The translations under genes were made by a program, and so were the position numbers. From Myxococcales bacterium (lineage in GTDB: Bacteria; Myxococcota_A; Polyangia; Polyangiales; JAFGIB01): a DNA stretch of 64,000 nucleotides. A model generated the notes under the pieces. That model did no database searches. It worked only from the letters and a program-made list of their open reading frames with translations, and had not been told where the DNA came from. Shown one piece after another: positions 7,409 to 50,572 of this stretch (the first letter of the stretch is position 1; each line of letters begins with the position of its first letter). The stretch lies in the NCBI GenBank assembly GCA_029880325.1, contig JAOUOP010000038.1, positions 1 to 64,000 of the forward strand. Direction: 5' to 3'.

Positions 7409-7576
7409 CTAGATGTGCTCGGCGGGAGTCATGATCCGCTCTCGGGACCGCTACGGCGCCAGCTGCGGCGTCCGGCCCCCTTGAAATACACGGAGTATTC
7501 CGGCGGAGGCCGTCCTTGCATCTGGCATCGTATCGACCCCGATCATCGGCTCAGCACTCCCGCCGAGCACATCTAG
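7409..7576. repeat. 168-bp inverted-repeat element (MITE- or REP-like)
   Basis: Arms 7409-7429 and 7556-7576 are perfect 21-bp reverse complements, beginning CTAGATGTGCTC. The 126-bp interior has no credible gene and no transposase. The left arm recurs, plus one further matching base, at 50569-50590. It sits between convergent genes in a 333-bp non-coding gap (7314-7646); nothing else was seen in that gap. No target duplication is evident. Confidence 0.85.
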
Positions 7577-30345: not shown

Positions 30346-31506
30346 ATGCTCCTCAGGCACCAACCAACGCACCTCACCATCGCACTCCTGGCATTGCCGA
30401 CATTCGGCGCCGCCGCCTGCGGCGTCACGGACCGAAACACGACCCAGTGTACCGACGACTGCCCAACCACCCGCGACGCGGACGGCGTCAACATCCGCGA
30501 CGACTCGGGCACTGGGATGGACGGATCAAGCTTGGACGGCTCGGACGCGCGCGCGGTCGATCCCGATGCGGCACGCGACACCCAAGCGATCGTCGACGCT
30601 CAGCCCGAGGCATCGGTAGCGAACGATGCGGGGGATGCCGGGGACGCAGGCGACGCGGGCGATGCAGGTGACGGCGCCATCGACTGCAGCGCCTGCAAGA
30701 CCGCCGAGCGCCCCCACTGCACCCCGGAAGGAAGCTGCGGCGAATGCCTCGAGGACCAGCATTGCGCGCCGGAAGTGTGCATCGGCTACCTTTGCTACGA
30801 ATGCCGCGACAACAGCCTCTGCAACAGCGCCGAAGCCTCGCGCTGCAGTTCCCTGCACTCCTGCGCCCCCTGCCTGAGCGACGCCGACTGCGCCCACATC
30901 GAGGGCAAAAACGTCTGCTCTGCCGGCACGTGTGTGCAGTGCGACGGCGATGACTACGACGCTTGCGGCAAGCAAGACGGCACCGATGCCATCCTCGTCT
31001 GCGAGAGCCTGAACAACACCTGCTCGACCACCGCAACCCAGGCAAGCGCCGGGCTGTGCCAGCCCTGCGTCTCGGACGCCCAGTGCGAACCGGGAATGCT
31101 CTGCGTGCAGCAGCTGCGCGGGGACGTCGAGGTGGGGTGGTTTTGCTTGTGGCAGGAGGGCAGTGGACTCGGAGGCGCTCCTGATGACTGCTTCGCCACG
31201 GGACGCCCTTACATCAAGCGTGCTCTAGACTCGCAGAGCATTGATGGGACGAGTGCCACAGTTTGCGAACTTCGTGTCACGACCTGCCCTGGGCTCGTCG
31301 ACTTCAGCAGCAAGGATTGCAAGTCCGACAACCTGCCCAACGATGGACTGTGCGGGCACCCAGATGTCGAGGACGCAAAGTGCATCGAATCGAGTCCGAC
31401 CACCTACCGCTGCACGACCCGCTGCAGCAGTGATGATGACTGTCGAAGCGGGCACAACTGTGACACCACGAGCGAACCCCCCGCTTGCGACCTGCAGATC
31501 GAGTAG
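30346..31506 (+). CDS. Cys-rich lipoprotein, tandem copy 1
   Basis: 386 residues from ATG 30346. The signal ends FGAAAC. A Asp/Ala-rich spacer with GDA repeats is followed by a dense Cys region (CSACKTAERPHC, CGECLEDQHC, CLSDADCAHIEGKNVC, CQPCVSDAQCEPGMLC). Such spaced Cys-x-x-Cys units are common in secreted myxobacterial proteins and have no known function. Bases 30541-31181 are nearly identical to 31730-32361 in the next gene while both ends differ, indicating recent gene conversion. It is twelve bases after the PEGA gene, in the same operon. Confidence 0.85.
   Translation: MLLRHQPTHLTIALLALPTFGAAACGVTDRNTTQCTDDCPTTRDADGVNIRDDSGTGMDGSSLDGSDARAVDPDAARDTQAIVDAQPEASVANDAGDAGDAGDAGDAGDGAIDCSACKTAERPHCTPEGSCGECLEDQHCAPEVCIGYLCYECRDNSLCNSAEASRCSSLHSCAPCLSDADCAHIEGKNVCSAGTCVQCDGDDYDACGKQDGTDAILVCESLNNTCSTTATQASAGLCQPCVSDAQCEPGMLCVQQLRGDVEVGWFCLWQEGSGLGGAPDDCFATGRPYIKRALDSQSIDGTSATVCELRVTTCPGLVDFSSKDCKSDNLPNDGLCGHPDVEDAKCIESSPTTYRCTTRCSSDDDCRSGHNCDTTSEPPACDLQIE
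30541..31181 (+). repeat. Near-identical direct repeat, copy 1
   Basis: It matches 31730-32361 with five base changes and one 9-base deletion that removes a GDA unit. By contrast the gene segments before and after the block differ at many codons. Confidence 0.9.
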
Positions 31507-31537
31507 CGAAAGCAACAACCGCAGCCCGGCTGATGCA

Positions 31538-32683
31538 ATGCCATTCCACAGCCACAAACACTACCAACTCGCGACTGGCGCACCGCAGCTGCTCATCAGC
31601 CTCGCCCTGCTGGCCTGCGTGCCCAACGCTGGCGTTGACGATGCCGATGCCGCAGCAGCGGTCACGACCGGCACCCACGCCGCGCCGGACACCAGGCCCG
31701 CCGACGTCGACGCGGCGAGCCCCGACCCATCGGACGCGCGCGCGGTCGATCCCGATGCGGCGGGCGACACCCAAACGATCGTCGACGCTCAGCCCGAGGC
31801 ATCGGTCGCGAACGATGCGGGGGACGCAGGCGACGCGGGCGATGCAGGTGACGGCGCCATCGACTGCAGCGCCTGCAAGACCGCCGAGCGCCCCCACTGC
31901 ACCCCGGAAGGAAGCTGCGGCGAATGCCTCGAGGACCAGCATTGCGCGCCGGAAGTGTGCATCGGCTACCTTTGCTACGAATGCCGCGACAACAGCCTCT
32001 GCAACAGCGCCGAAGCCTCGCGCTGCAGTTCCCTGCACTCCTGCGCCCCCTGCCTGAGCGACGCCGACTGCGCCCACATCGAGGGCAAAAACGTCTGCTC
32101 TGCCGGCACGTGTGTGCAGTGCGACGGCGATGACTACGACGCTTGCGGCAAGCAAGACGGCACCGATGCCATCCTCGTCTGCGAGAGCCTGAACAACACC
32201 TGCTCGACCACCGCAACCCAGGCAAGCGCCGGGCTGTGCCAGCCCTGCGTCTCGGACGCCCAGTGCGAACCGGGAATGCTCTGCGTGCAGCAGCTGCGCG
32301 GGGAGGTCGAGGTGGGGTGGTTTTGCTTGTGGCAGGAGGGCAGTGGACTCGGAGGCGCTCCCGGCGATTGCGAAACCCAGGGGCGCCCCTATGTCCAGCC
32401 TCGCACCGGCCGCAAAAGCATTGATGGAACCGGCGTAGATTTTTGCGATCTCGCTCTAACCACCTGCCCGGGCCTCGCTGACTTCAGCAACCAGGACTGC
32501 GCGCAGTCCGGAACCCCGGAGGACACCGACTGCGGACATCCAGACATCGAAGACTCCAAGTGCGTCCCCTATGGCGAAGGCTTCCGCTGCACGACCCGCT
32601 GCAGCAGTGATGATGACTGCAAAGTCGGCCACGCCTGCGAGCCCGATGGTGGTGGAGACATCTGCAGCCTAAGCGCCGGCTAA
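31538..32683 (+). CDS. Cys-rich lipoprotein, tandem copy 2
   Basis: 381 residues from ATG 31538; a longer frame runs upstream through the previous gene and is not used. The lipoprotein signal ends LALLAC. The Asp/Ala linker, GDA repeats and Cys-rich core are copies of those in the preceding gene. The last 110 residues align with the neighbour but with many substitutions (for example GRPYVQPRTGRKSIDGTG versus GRPYIKRALDSQSIDGTS), and both share CTTRCSSDDDC. No strong Shine-Dalgarno sequence is seen. Function is unknown. Confidence 0.83.
   Translation: MPFHSHKHYQLATGAPQLLISLALLACVPNAGVDDADAAAAVTTGTHAAPDTRPADVDAASPDPSDARAVDPDAAGDTQTIVDAQPEASVANDAGDAGDAGDAGDGAIDCSACKTAERPHCTPEGSCGECLEDQHCAPEVCIGYLCYECRDNSLCNSAEASRCSSLHSCAPCLSDADCAHIEGKNVCSAGTCVQCDGDDYDACGKQDGTDAILVCESLNNTCSTTATQASAGLCQPCVSDAQCEPGMLCVQQLRGEVEVGWFCLWQEGSGLGGAPGDCETQGRPYVQPRTGRKSIDGTGVDFCDLALTTCPGLADFSNQDCAQSGTPEDTDCGHPDIEDSKCVPYGEGFRCTTRCSSDDDCKVGHACEPDGGGDICSLSAG
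31730..32361 (+). repeat. Near-identical direct repeat, copy 2
   Basis: Partner of 30541-31181. The offset is 1,189 bases at the left end and 1,180 after the 9-base deletion. Confidence 0.9.
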
Positions 32684-32753: not shown

Positions 32754-32885
32754 ATGCTCATCTGCATCGCGCTGCTTGCCTGCATACCGAAAGACGACAC
32801 GCAAAAAACCGATGCCGGCATCCCGACCGTTCCCGACGGCCGCGGTTTAGCGGGCCCAGCGCACCGCAACGGCGCCTCGAAGTAG
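32754..32885 (+). pseudogene. Remnant or truncated third lipoprotein of the Cys-rich set
   Basis: A 43-residue frame from ATG 32754 (or 60 residues from 32703) starts with a lipoprotein signal (MLICIALLACIPKDD) resembling that of copy 2 (LISLALLACVPN). It has a short Asp/Lys linker and stops before any Cys-rich region. It is placed exactly where a third tandem member would be. It could also be a genuine tiny lipoprotein. Confidence 0.5.
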
Positions 32886-33017
32886 CTCGGCTACGACTTC
32901 GGCACCGTAACGGCACGCTGCACCCGCTCTCCCTCGCGAATTTGCGGCGATTTCAAACCGGTCGCCGCTCTGGGCAATCACCCTTGCATTCCGAGGCGTT
33001 CACCCCCAAGAACGCAG

Positions 33018-33167
33018 AGTCACCTGTGTCGGTAGTTCTGGGCAGAACTCGACGGCCCTCGCCGCGTCGACCGCCCTTCGGGCGACATATCTCCTCGAAT
33101 ATACTCTATATGTGCTTCGGCGATTCGCCTCGCCGAGTTTGACCCAGAACTTCCGACACAGGTGACT
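33018..33167. mobile_element. 150-bp MITE-like element
   Basis: Terminal inverted repeats 33018-33050 and 33135-33167 match at 29 of 33 positions and begin AGTCACCTGTGTCGG. The 84-bp interior has no gene but holds AT-rich TATACT and TATATG motifs (33100-33112). The right end stops two bases before the pepF ATG. A 2-bp AG flanks both ends, too short to prove target duplication. No transposase with matching ends is in the window. The bases 32886-33017 before it hold only a weak 7-bp hairpin (32944-32968). Confidence 0.85.
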
Positions 33168-33169
33168 AG

Positions 33170-34969
33170 ATGGATGGCGCACAGCCCGATTGGGATATGG
33201 AGGCCTTTTTTCCGGGCGTGGAGAGCGGGGAGTTTTTGGGCTTTCGAGATGGGCTTCGGCGGGAGCTTGCCGAGCTTTTGGAGCGATTGCGGGCTTTGCC
33301 GGCTTTGACGGCTGCGAGTCTCGAGGACTGGACGCAGGCTCTGCTGGCGCTGGAAGCCCTGGGGCAACGCGCCGGGCATTTGCAGACGTACTTGAGCTGC
33401 CGGCGTGCGGCCGATTCCAGCGACTCGGCGGTGGCGCGCGAGACTGCCGCCATGGGCAAGCCGCTGTCGCTGCTGCAGAAGATGAGTGTGACGGTGCAGC
33501 AGGCGCTGGCCCGGGCCTCCGAGGCCGAGTTCAAAGCGCTGGCGAATGCCCCCGAGCTGCGCGATGTGCGGTATTTTCTGGAACGCGCTCGCACGCGGGC
33601 GGGCTTCAGTATGGAGCAGGCGTTGGAGGATTTGGCCGCGGAGCTGGCGGTCGATGGGATCAATGCCTGGGGCCGGCTCTATGGGCAGCTGTCGGGGGTT
33701 TTGGAGTTCGAGCTGAACGTGGCCGGCCAGCCGCCGCGGCGGGTGCCGGTGTCCATGGCCCGCACGCTGATGGAGGATCCCGATCGGGCGGTGCGAGAGG
33801 CGGCGTTCGAGGGTAGCAATGGGGCCTGGCGCGGCGCGGCCGATACCGTGGCCGCTTGTCTCAATGCCATCAGCGGTACGCGCCTGAGCCTGTATCCGCG
33901 CCGCGGGGTGGTGCACTTTCTCGATCCCGCGCTCTTCGATGCCTGTATCGAACGCCGCACCCTGGAGACGCTGCTCGATGTGGTGCGTAGCCGCCAGGAG
34001 TTGGCCCGTCGCTATCTGCGGCGCAAGGCGGAGTTGCTCGGGCTCGAGCGGCTGGCGTTCTATGATGTGAGCGCACCGCTGCCGGGCACCCAGGGAGCGC
34101 GCATCGACTGGGGTCAGGCCCGCGAGCGCGTGTCGCGCGCTTTCGGTGACTTTCATCCCGAGTTGGGCGCCCTTTCCGAGAGTGCTTTCACAGAGCGTTG
34201 GATCGACCATCAGCCGCGCGCCTCCAAGCGTCCGGGCGGCTTTTGCGCCAGCGCGCCGCTGCTGGGGCAGTCGCGCATTTTCATGACCTTCAATGGCGCC
34301 GAGGGCGATCTGTCGACCCTGGCCCACGAGCTCGGCCACGCCTTCCATGGCCGCGTGATGGACGACATGCGCCCCTGGCAGCGCCGCTATCCGATGACGC
34401 TGGCCGAGACCGCTTCGACCTTCGCCGAGCAGGTGGTGACCGAGGCGGCTCTGGCGGCGCCGGGGCTGGATGCAAACGGCCGGCGCGCCATCCTCGACCA
34501 GCGCCTTGCCGCCGCCGCGACCTTTCTCTGCAATATCCCCATGCGCTTCGATTTCGAGCACGCGCTCTACGAACGCAGGGCTGCCGGCGAGCTGACGGTG
34601 GATGAGCTGCAGACGCTGGTACTCGAGGCCCAGCGCAAGAATTACGGCGATGCCCTCGACCCCGAGGGGCTCGATCCGATGTTCTGGGCCTCGAAGCTGC
34701 ACTTCTATATCACGTCGCTGAGCTTCTATAACTTCCCCTACACTTTTGGTTATCTCTTCAGCCTCGGCATCTTCGCCCGCGCACGCCGCGAAGGGGCCGG
34801 CTTTTTTCCGATCTACCAGGAGCTGCTGCGCAAGACCGGCAGCGGCAGCGCCGAGGAGGTGGCCGCTTCGGTGCTGGGCGTCGACCTGCAAGAGCCGGAG
34901 TTCTGGAATCAGAGCATCGATCTGATCGAGGCCGACCTGGAGCGCTTCGTCGCGCTCGCCGAGGAGTGA
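33170..34969 (+). CDS. pepF: M3-family oligoendopeptidase (PepF type)
   Basis: 599 residues from ATG 33170. It is a cytoplasmic zinc metallopeptidase that cuts oligopeptides. The zinc site HELGH is at His386-His390 (TLAHELGHAFHG), and the third ligand is probably the Glu in LAETASTFAEQVV. The length and the ending (GSGSAEEVAASVLGVDL) fit PepF. The start is set by conserved sequence beginning soon after. Its only Shine-Dalgarno-like sequence, AGGTGA at 33160-33165, is inside the right terminal repeat of the MITE-like element. The HAD gene follows after seven bases. Confidence 0.93.
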   Translation: MDGAQPDWDMEAFFPGVESGEFLGFRDGLRRELAELLERLRALPALTAASLEDWTQALLALEALGQRAGHLQTYLSCRRAADSSDSAVARETAAMGKPLSLLQKMSVTVQQALARASEAEFKALANAPELRDVRYFLERARTRAGFSMEQALEDLAAELAVDGINAWGRLYGQLSGVLEFELNVAGQPPRRVPVSMARTLMEDPDRAVREAAFEGSNGAWRGAADTVAACLNAISGTRLSLYPRRGVVHFLDPALFDACIERRTLETLLDVVRSRQELARRYLRRKAELLGLERLAFYDVSAPLPGTQGARIDWGQARERVSRAFGDFHPELGALSESAFTERWIDHQPRASKRPGGFCASAPLLGQSRIFMTFNGAEGDLSTLAHELGHAFHGRVMDDMRPWQRRYPMTLAETASTFAEQVVTEAALAAPGLDANGRRAILDQRLAAAATFLCNIPMRFDFEHALYERRAAGELTVDELQTLVLEAQRKNYGDALDPEGLDPMFWASKLHFYITSLSFYNFPYTFGYLFSLGIFARARREGAGFFPIYQELLRKTGSGSAEEVAASVLGVDLQEPEFWNQSIDLIEADLERFVALAEE

Positions 34970-34976
34970 GGCCCCG

Positions 34977-35693
34977 ATGCTCCGCGCCACCGCCCTGCCG
35001 CCCGTCGTGCTGCTCGATCTGGACGACACCATCGTGCATTTCACGGTGGGTCGCCCAAACTTCTGGCTGCAAGCGTTTGCAACCCACCACCGGCCAGGCC
35101 TGCCAAGTCCCGAGCGTCTCACACAGGCGGTGGATGCGGTGTCGGGGCCCTACTGGGCCGACGCCAAGCGCGCTTCCGAACGTCGCCTGGCCCTGCGCCA
35201 GGCCCGCCGCGAGGTGGCCGAGCTGGCGTTTACCGCACTGGGCCTGGAGGACCGGTCGCTGGCCCATCGCGTGGCCGACGACTTCACCGACAACAAAGAA
35301 GACGCCGTGGCCCCCTTTGAAGGCGCCATCGAGGCGCTCACGGCCCTGCAGGGGCGTGGCACCCGCCTGGGCCTGATCACCAACGGTCACCCCCGGCTGC
35401 AGCGCCGCAAGCTCAAGCGCTACGATCTCGAGCGCCACTTCGAGGCCGTGCTGATCGAGGGTGAGTGGGGCGTCGGCAAGCCCCACGCGAGTATCTTTGC
35501 CGAGGCGCTGTCACAGATGCGCTGCAAGCCCGAGGATGCCTGGATGGTGGGCGACAATCTCGTCGCCGACATCGCCGGCGCCCAGGCCCTGGGCATCACC
35601 GCCGTGTGGGTCGATCACGCCGGCGACGGACCACCGGCGGCCAGCAAGCCCGACCGCATCATCCGCGCGCTGTCGGACCTGCTGGAGCCCTGA
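34977..35693 (+). CDS. HAD-superfamily hydrolase (YjjG/HAD-IA type)
   Basis: 238 residues. Motif I is VVLLDLDDTIVHF (nucleophile Asp), motif II LGLITNGHPR, motif III Lys in WGVGKPHASIF, and motif IV AWMVGDNLVADIAGAQ. A helical cap lies between motifs I and II. It is likely a phosphatase acting on nucleotides or sugar phosphates; the substrate is not readable. It lies seven bases after pepF, so the two are probably co-transcribed. Confidence 0.92.
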   Translation: MLRATALPPVVLLDLDDTIVHFTVGRPNFWLQAFATHHRPGLPSPERLTQAVDAVSGPYWADAKRASERRLALRQARREVAELAFTALGLEDRSLAHRVADDFTDNKEDAVAPFEGAIEALTALQGRGTRLGLITNGHPRLQRRKLKRYDLERHFEAVLIEGEWGVGKPHASIFAEALSQMRCKPEDAWMVGDNLVADIAGAQALGITAVWVDHAGDGPPAASKPDRIIRALSDLLEP

Positions 35694-49933: not shown

Positions 49934-50572
49934 ATGAAGGCTCGACTGCAAACGCTATTGTGGGGATTTTCCTTTTTATCCAGCCTGGTCCTGGGCACGG
50001 TTTCGGCCCAGGCCGGTGAGCTGGGCGTTCCCGTCGAGCGTCTGAACGACGGCAATATCGAGACGCGCACCACCCCCCACCCGGGCACGGAGCTACTGGC
50101 CGGCTCGTCGGTGGGCATCGTGGAGGCGCCCTACGAAGAGGTCCTGAAGGTGGTCGAGGACTACGGCCGCTACGCCGACCGCTTCATGCCCCACTTCGAC
50201 AAGTCCAAGGTGCTCTCCCGCCGCGGCTCGGCCGCCCTGGTCTATATCGAGGCGACCATCGCCAAGGGCATGGTGAAGGTGTGGGCTCAGGTCAAGGTGC
50301 GCGGCATGGATCAGGCCGATGGCACGCGCGTGGTCGAAGCGAAGCTGATGAAGGGCAACCTCGCTGTGATGCACGCCCGCTTCCACCTCAAGAAGCTCGA
50401 CGCCGGACGCACCCTGGTCGGCTTCAAGATGATCATGGACCCGGACCTGAAGGTCGTGCCCGACTCGCTGGTCAACGCCGAAAACGAAAAATGGTCCCGC
50501 CGCGTCATCAAGCGCCTGCGCCGAGCGGTGGTGGAACGCCGCGCCGCACCAACCGGTAAAGCAGCGCCCTAG
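49934..50572 (+). CDS. START/SRPBCC-fold exported protein
   Basis: 212 residues from ATG 49934. A Sec signal (LLWGFSFLSSLVLGTVSAQA) leads to a lipid-binding type SRPBCC domain (SSVGIVEAPYEEVLKVVEDY, ALVYIEATIAKGMVKVWAQV, LVGFKMIMDPDLKVVPDSLV). Such domains bind hydrophobic ligands in a deep pocket. The UAG stop is part of the palindromic repeat 50569-50604, so the repeat may have trimmed or reset the C-terminus. The ligand is unknown. Confidence 0.8.
   Translation: MKARLQTLLWGFSFLSSLVLGTVSAQAGELGVPVERLNDGNIETRTTPHPGTELLAGSSVGIVEAPYEEVLKVVEDYGRYADRFMPHFDKSKVLSRRGSAALVYIEATIAKGMVKVWAQVKVRGMDQADGTRVVEAKLMKGNLAVMHARFHLKKLDAGRTLVGFKMIMDPDLKVVPDSLVNAENEKWSRRVIKRLRRAVVERRAAPTGKAAP

Follow-up and report, generated by a model that had tools for sequence, protein, structure and literature searches.

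A diverged CTAG-bounded MITE with Shine-Dalgarno-bearing ends at the pepF start codon of a Myxococcales bacterium

In a 64,000-nucleotide stretch of a Myxococcales bacterium genome (contig JAOUOP010000038.1, positions 1 to 64,000; here called the window), a first-pass annotation had noticed an inverted repeat whose right arm holds AGGTGA four bases before the ATG of a pepF-like gene, with no other Shine-Dalgarno (SD) sequence available. We confirmed that this AGGTGA is the sole SD word before pepF and that the right end of the element, AGGTGA-CTAG, abuts the ATG at 33170. The locus thus raises two questions: whether a mobile element provides the ribosome-binding site (RBS) for a peptidase gene, and how an element inserted right at a start codon could be tolerated. 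The reading we favor, with a probability of roughly two in three, is that an old member of a MITE family, named F1 here, supplies the pepF RBS through its SD-bearing ends and that start-codon insertions survive by this means.

Table 1. Features around the pepF start, with their positions in the window.
Feature	Position	Strand	Remark
Second hairpin repeat, tip-like center CGCCTCGAAGTAGCTCGGCTACGACTTCGGC	32873..32903	+	Between the upstream gene and the F1 element
F1-family MITE copy, diverged	33016..33169	+	154 bp; family standard 181 bp
Left terminal inverted repeat (TIR)	33018..33054	+	Outermost CT of CTAG now AG
Conserved hairpin tip	33091..33122	+	CTCCTCGAAT-ATACTCTATAT-GTGCTTCGGCG; consensus CTCCTCGAAT-N4-N3-N4-GTCCTTCGTCG
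Apical stem-loop of tip	33101..33111	+	With 33100 and 33112 spells TATACT and TATATG
Right terminal inverted repeat	33131..33167	+	
AGGTGA SD word, inside right TIR	33160..33165	+	CTAG (4 nt), then ATG
In-frame TAG stop directly 5' of ATG	33167..33169	+	Read from the sequence
pepF-like M3 oligopeptidase, 599 aa	33170..34969	+	
HAD-family hydrolase	34977..35693	+	Starts 7 nt after pepF

The F1 family and its window copy

The feature is a real non-autonomous, CTAG-bounded MITE. Its inverted repeat is far above chance because the 8.16-Mb genome (156 contigs) contains the same 150- to 180-bp sequence about 30 times; these long copies share 74 to 100% identity and are accompanied by half copies and very short palindromic ones. 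F1 copies are short (154 to 182 bp), carry no ORF of their own, and have TIRs that are near-perfect in copies other than that in the window, which bears out the first-pass description of a MITE-like element. The element is missing at the pepF orthologues of a congener and of members of two other families. Standard copies measure 181 bp, have the end CTAGTCACCTGTGTCGG, run from CTAGTCACCTGTGTCGGTAGTT to AACTACCGACACAGGTGACTAG, and are flanked by CTAG on both sides; a 16-base TIR word occurs in 45 exact copies genome-wide. Read outward, both ends of a full copy give ...CAGGTGACTAG, placing an SD word at each end.

The window copy is an old, diverged member of this family. Its arms, 37 nt each with a spacing of 76 nt, are 86% complementary, and our recount over 33 nt gave the same 29 matches as before. 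Compared with the consensus of 17 other copies, it has 9 substitutions, losses of 13 and 21 nt, and a gain of 4 nt, and its left border has decayed from CTAG to AGAG. The element had originally been placed at 33018 to 33172; it does lie there, but with the span given in Table 1, since 33170 to 33172 is already the start codon.

A genome search, as the first pass had proposed, recovered these other copies, but the IS with the same ends that it had also proposed to look for was not found in this assembly, nor does any pair of F1 ends enclose a gene in it, although a repeated IS may drop out at contig breaks. The IS630-type (DDE_3) transposases of this genome belong to elements ending ...CACTGGTTAG; they were rejected as the F1 partner because their ends differ. 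A search of five element loci against Rfam gave no relevant match even at an E value of up to 5, indicating no known RNA family.

At least two other abundant CTAG-bounded families are present in the genome, F2 (CTAGATGTGCTCGGCGGGAGT..., about 40 places, with one complete copy at window positions 7409 to 7576) and F3 (CTAG-GTGGCTGGTGTCAAAC..., some 30 to 40 places). F1 copies are often adjoined by F2 or F3 at a shared CTAG, and the ends of these two families (GCACATCTAG and AGCCACCTAG) contain no SD word.

Several other arrangements were observed. Very short F1 derivatives (L037, L039, L043, and L044; about 50 to 85 bp) have TIRs nearly back to back with CTAG on both sides, one copy (L024, G000 C137:7829-8040) has an arm in which a run of CGACGTCCCT units is expanded, and a truncated copy (L256/L048, G000 C126:3408-4035) is directly adjoined by an IS200-like Y1 transposase whose hairpin end abuts CTAG. 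A solo F2 left end (CTAGATGTGCTCGGCGGGAGT) lies at window position 50569 with no right end nearby. Just upstream of the pepF region, positions 30346 to 32683 encode two tandem, near-identical cysteine-rich proteins with GDAGDAG repeats, one of 386 aa and the other similar.

F1 ends at start codons and the pepF ribosome-binding site

The pepF product matched PF01432 (1.7e-26) and PF08439 (6.3e-08), i.e., Peptidase_M3/PepF, and its gene probably forms one operon with that of the HAD-family hydrolase. By sequence comparison, ATG 33170 was shown to be the correct start codon: the in-frame TAG right before it makes an upstream start impossible, and the orthologues from the congener and two other families (G001, 60% identity; G015, 57%; G034, 40%) begin no more than a few codons away from this position, with the N-termini MKTLEVGQPDWDM, MNTASATQPNWDM, and MDWDL, respectively, against MDGAQPDWDM here. 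The first-pass annotation had named an element conserved upstream of pepF in distant species, or an upstream start in homologues, as evidence against its reading; upstream of these three orthologues there is no element, and none has a far-upstream start.

The AGGTGA stands at the usual SD spacing, the common bacterial anti-SD being assumed for the 16S of this organism, and the genome uses SD words, given that SD 4-mers occur at -4 to -15 in 35% of 107 ORFs compared with about 15% further upstream. We infer that ribosomes use the AGGTGA of the element at pepF. An F1 copy landing a few bases before a start codon would remove the native RBS and bring its own, and such insertions would survive because the end carries an SD word; at pepF, the right end would serve (AGGTGA-CTAG-ATG).

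The arrangement of F1 ends across the genome was scored for the 44 ends that had 600 nt or more of flanking sequence and no abutting element, a gene start being the first ATG in an ORF that looked coding (at least 120 codons, judged by GC at codon positions) within 220 nt. The ATG offsets were 0, 0, 3, 3, 3, 5, 5, 10, 16, 23, 31, 50, 56, 89, 105, 118, 120, and 190. A coding ATG thus lay 0 to 10 nt from 8/44 F1 ends, compared with 1/48 free ends of F2 and 0/34 of F3. For F1 versus F2 and F3 together (1/82), the Fisher P value was 0.0009 per end and 0.011 when only ends having a gene start within 220 nt were counted, in a test of modest numbers from one genome that was designed after the flanks were inspected. 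When ATG, GTG, and TTG were allowed, 11/19 gene-facing ends of F1 fell at 0 to 10 nt, versus 1/13 for F2 and 1/12 for F3. The ATGs that follow CTAG in L002, L016, L019, and L039 were rejected as gene starts, being part of or resembling an abutting F2 element (CTAGATGTGCTCGG).

The eight genes nearest to F1 ends are pepF and a solute-binding protein gene (offset 0), those for LigT, TatD, and an unnamed ORF (3), those for CobS and glutamate dehydrogenase (5), and an epimerase gene (10, i.e., 14 nt from AGGTGA, at the limit of useful SD spacing); seven have Pfam matches. Four lie on the same strand as the tip and four on the opposite strand. Since the gene can be on either flank of the element, the common factor is the symmetric, outward-reading TIR rather than a directional interior or promoter. 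This pattern strengthens the RBS proposal and would extend it, on sequence grounds, to the F1 family as a whole with about seven other genes.

The excess at starts could instead reflect a target preference of F1's own transposase, with the SD word being coincidental. Because the TIRs are not alike between F1, F2, and F3, their enzymes and preferences may differ as well, and AT-richer start regions could favor insertion. However, all three families are bordered by CTAG, so that the core target looks alike, and element-free CTAG sites lie 0 to 10 nt before a coding ATG in only 6/200 cases (P = 0.0008 versus F1). We therefore consider this explanation unlikely, and selection, not target choice, would be the cause of the F1 excess. 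Somewhat more doubtful is a neutral element, i.e., a harmless insertion before a pepF gene translated without any SD word: the G001 and G015 orthologues lack an evident SD, so the gene may be able to do without it, and an SD 4-mer precedes only about a third of the ORFs here, but neutrality predicts SD-less ends at start codons too, and these are hardly found (1/82).

The proposal that appears least probable to us is that the element gives both a promoter and the RBS, with TATACT/TATATG as a -10 sequence. The first-pass annotation had suggested a promoter in the interior from these hexamers, and they do exist; moreover, sigma-70 promoters are known in Correia, MITEAba12, and other MITEs according to a review (PMC10969869), and an internal transcription start would partly free the SD word. 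However, a sigma-70 scan gave no promoter-like site, the genes are found on either side of the element, and the hexamers turned out to be the apical arms of the central hairpin, where other families have ATGC/GCAT, TGGC/GCCA, or GGCC/GGCC instead.

For the F1 end as the pepF RBS, RNA folding adds a qualification. In a predicted RNA spanning the complete element, every base of AGGUGA pairs with the left arm (unpaired probability 0.0), while in one starting inside the element it is partly free (about 0.1 to 0.9 per base). The complete hairpin would therefore hide the SD word, making it usable mainly in mRNAs that begin or are cut inside the element, and pepF translation would depend on the mRNA start position or on hairpin cleavage. 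RNase III cutting of Correia elements, described in the same review, offers a precedent for the latter (PMC10969869). If the proposal holds, SD-bearing MITE ends would explain the survival of insertions directly at a start codon, and F1 ends could retune how housekeeping genes (glutamate dehydrogenase, CobS, TatD, and pepF) are translated in one genome.

A hairpin tip shared by unrelated elements

The most surprising part of the element is its center, earlier read as a promoter. Elements from other families of the order have the F1 center in common but not the ends, and the ends of tip-bearing elements are unrelated (CTAGTGGTGCTCGGCGG, CTAGTGTCCTGTATCC, GGGCTCGCG, ACCTTTAAAT, and others). Aligning 25 tips taken from dissimilar elements gave CTCCTCGAAT, a 4-bp stem with a 3-nt loop, and GTCCTTCGTCG within a variable stem, and covariation was strong, with 63 cells changed on both sides versus 26 in shuffles (0/500); for 77 distinct sequences, in an alignment fitted to the model, the figures were 184 versus 69. 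The covariance model matched the window at 33079 to 33134, and the tip is present in about 29 F1 copies. It was found in 34/379 sampled Myxococcota genomes and in 2/398 from the phylum of the Kiloniellales bin, one being the seed genome. The tip is multicopy in Robiginitomaculum, Kiloniellales, and Muiribacterium bins, and its covariation extends over Myxococcota, Alphaproteobacteria, and Muiribacteriota, in MITEs whose ends are unrelated. Mismatches in its stems comprise 17 G-T and 20 A-C; these similar counts give no sign of RNA-strand selection and are compatible with folded DNA.

Lone pattern matches in Phycisphaerae and Zoogloeaceae genomes look like chance, as the model finds nothing there. 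Four copies in a Woesearchaeota bin were likewise set aside as possibly mis-binned, their ends matching those in the Muiribacterium bin, which has a similar isolate label; AT-rich tip elements with similar ends in these two bins (L119 and L123) may represent transfer or mis-binning. Viral contigs contained no tip, and a literature search for the tip words returned only chance matches in primers and constructs. The center of the F2 copy at 7409 to 7576, CCCCTTGAAATACACGGAGTATTCCGGCGGAG, resembles a diverged version of the same tip. The second hairpin repeat (Table 1) has five further copies in the fetched genome parts, two of them beside other F1 copies.

No shared gene was apparent as an autonomous partner around the tip loci. 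The RAYT/Y1 transposase was rejected for this role: PF01797 was not found in 4/8 genomes carrying the tip, and in the remaining four no tip is close to a Y1 gene except beside one IS200-like gene. Our best guess is that the tip serves as a hairpin recognized by a DNA-processing factor. More broadly, the tip may be a conserved functional module that a widespread trans-acting factor recognizes in folded DNA, and that has passed by recombination between MITE families whose ends are unrelated and into several phyla. It would then define a superfamily of hairpin mobile elements by the tip rather than by the termini, with one family also distributing RBSs; we consider the odds of this to be about even. 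The tip also poses a separate puzzle, in that otherwise unrelated mobile hairpins in several phyla keep one structured center, though non-autonomous elements should need only their ends.

Comparison with known mobile hairpins

The tip invites comparison with short palindromic repeats. The arms of CGTC-tagged REPs reportedly carry the words GAGGAG and GACGAAG, and the strand complementary to the tip, CGACGAAGGAC...ATTCGAGGAG, has the same words in the opposite order. CGTC REPs are palindromes of 20 to 40 bp with 8- to 9-bp stems and a terminal CGTC tag, occur in several phyla, and have no known transposase (Di Nocera 2013, PMC3733652). In contrast, F1 is a TIR-bounded hairpin of about 180 bp with CTAG ends, so only the internal words are similar. 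RAYT-mobilized REPs and REPINs are, like F1, imperfect multicopy hairpins; unlike them, F1 and its tip show no association with a Y1 REP transposase across the eight tip-bearing genomes, apart from the one IS200-like gene.

The flanks of F1 resemble those of IS630/Tc1-mariner elements, which target TA, in fitting C-TA-element-TA-G; IS630 prefers the TA in CTAG, according to the title of a cited work (reference b29 in PMC2170065). A CTAG duplication of the IS5 type fits equally, and with CTAG at both ends of most copies, the two duplications are indistinguishable from a palindromic end. The DDE_3 elements of this genome differ from F1 in their ends. MITEPsy1, an IS5-like MITE, inserts at CTAG (PMC3189936), a target that the F1 borders would fit as well.

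F1 resembles the bacterial MITEs Correia/nemis, MITEPsy1, Chunjie, and QMITE, which are likewise short, multicopy, TIR-bounded, non-coding, close to genes, and strongly hairpin-forming (PMC10969869). A tip common to families with unrelated TIRs is not among the MITE features in the review text consulted, and the words ribosome, RBS, and start codon are absent from the review. The effects on genes that it lists are promoters, IHF sites, RNase cleavage, inactivation, sRNAs, and possible riboswitches or terminators (PMC10969869). To the known contributions of MITEs, such as promoters and RNase sites, F1 would add ends that are themselves ribosome-binding sites.
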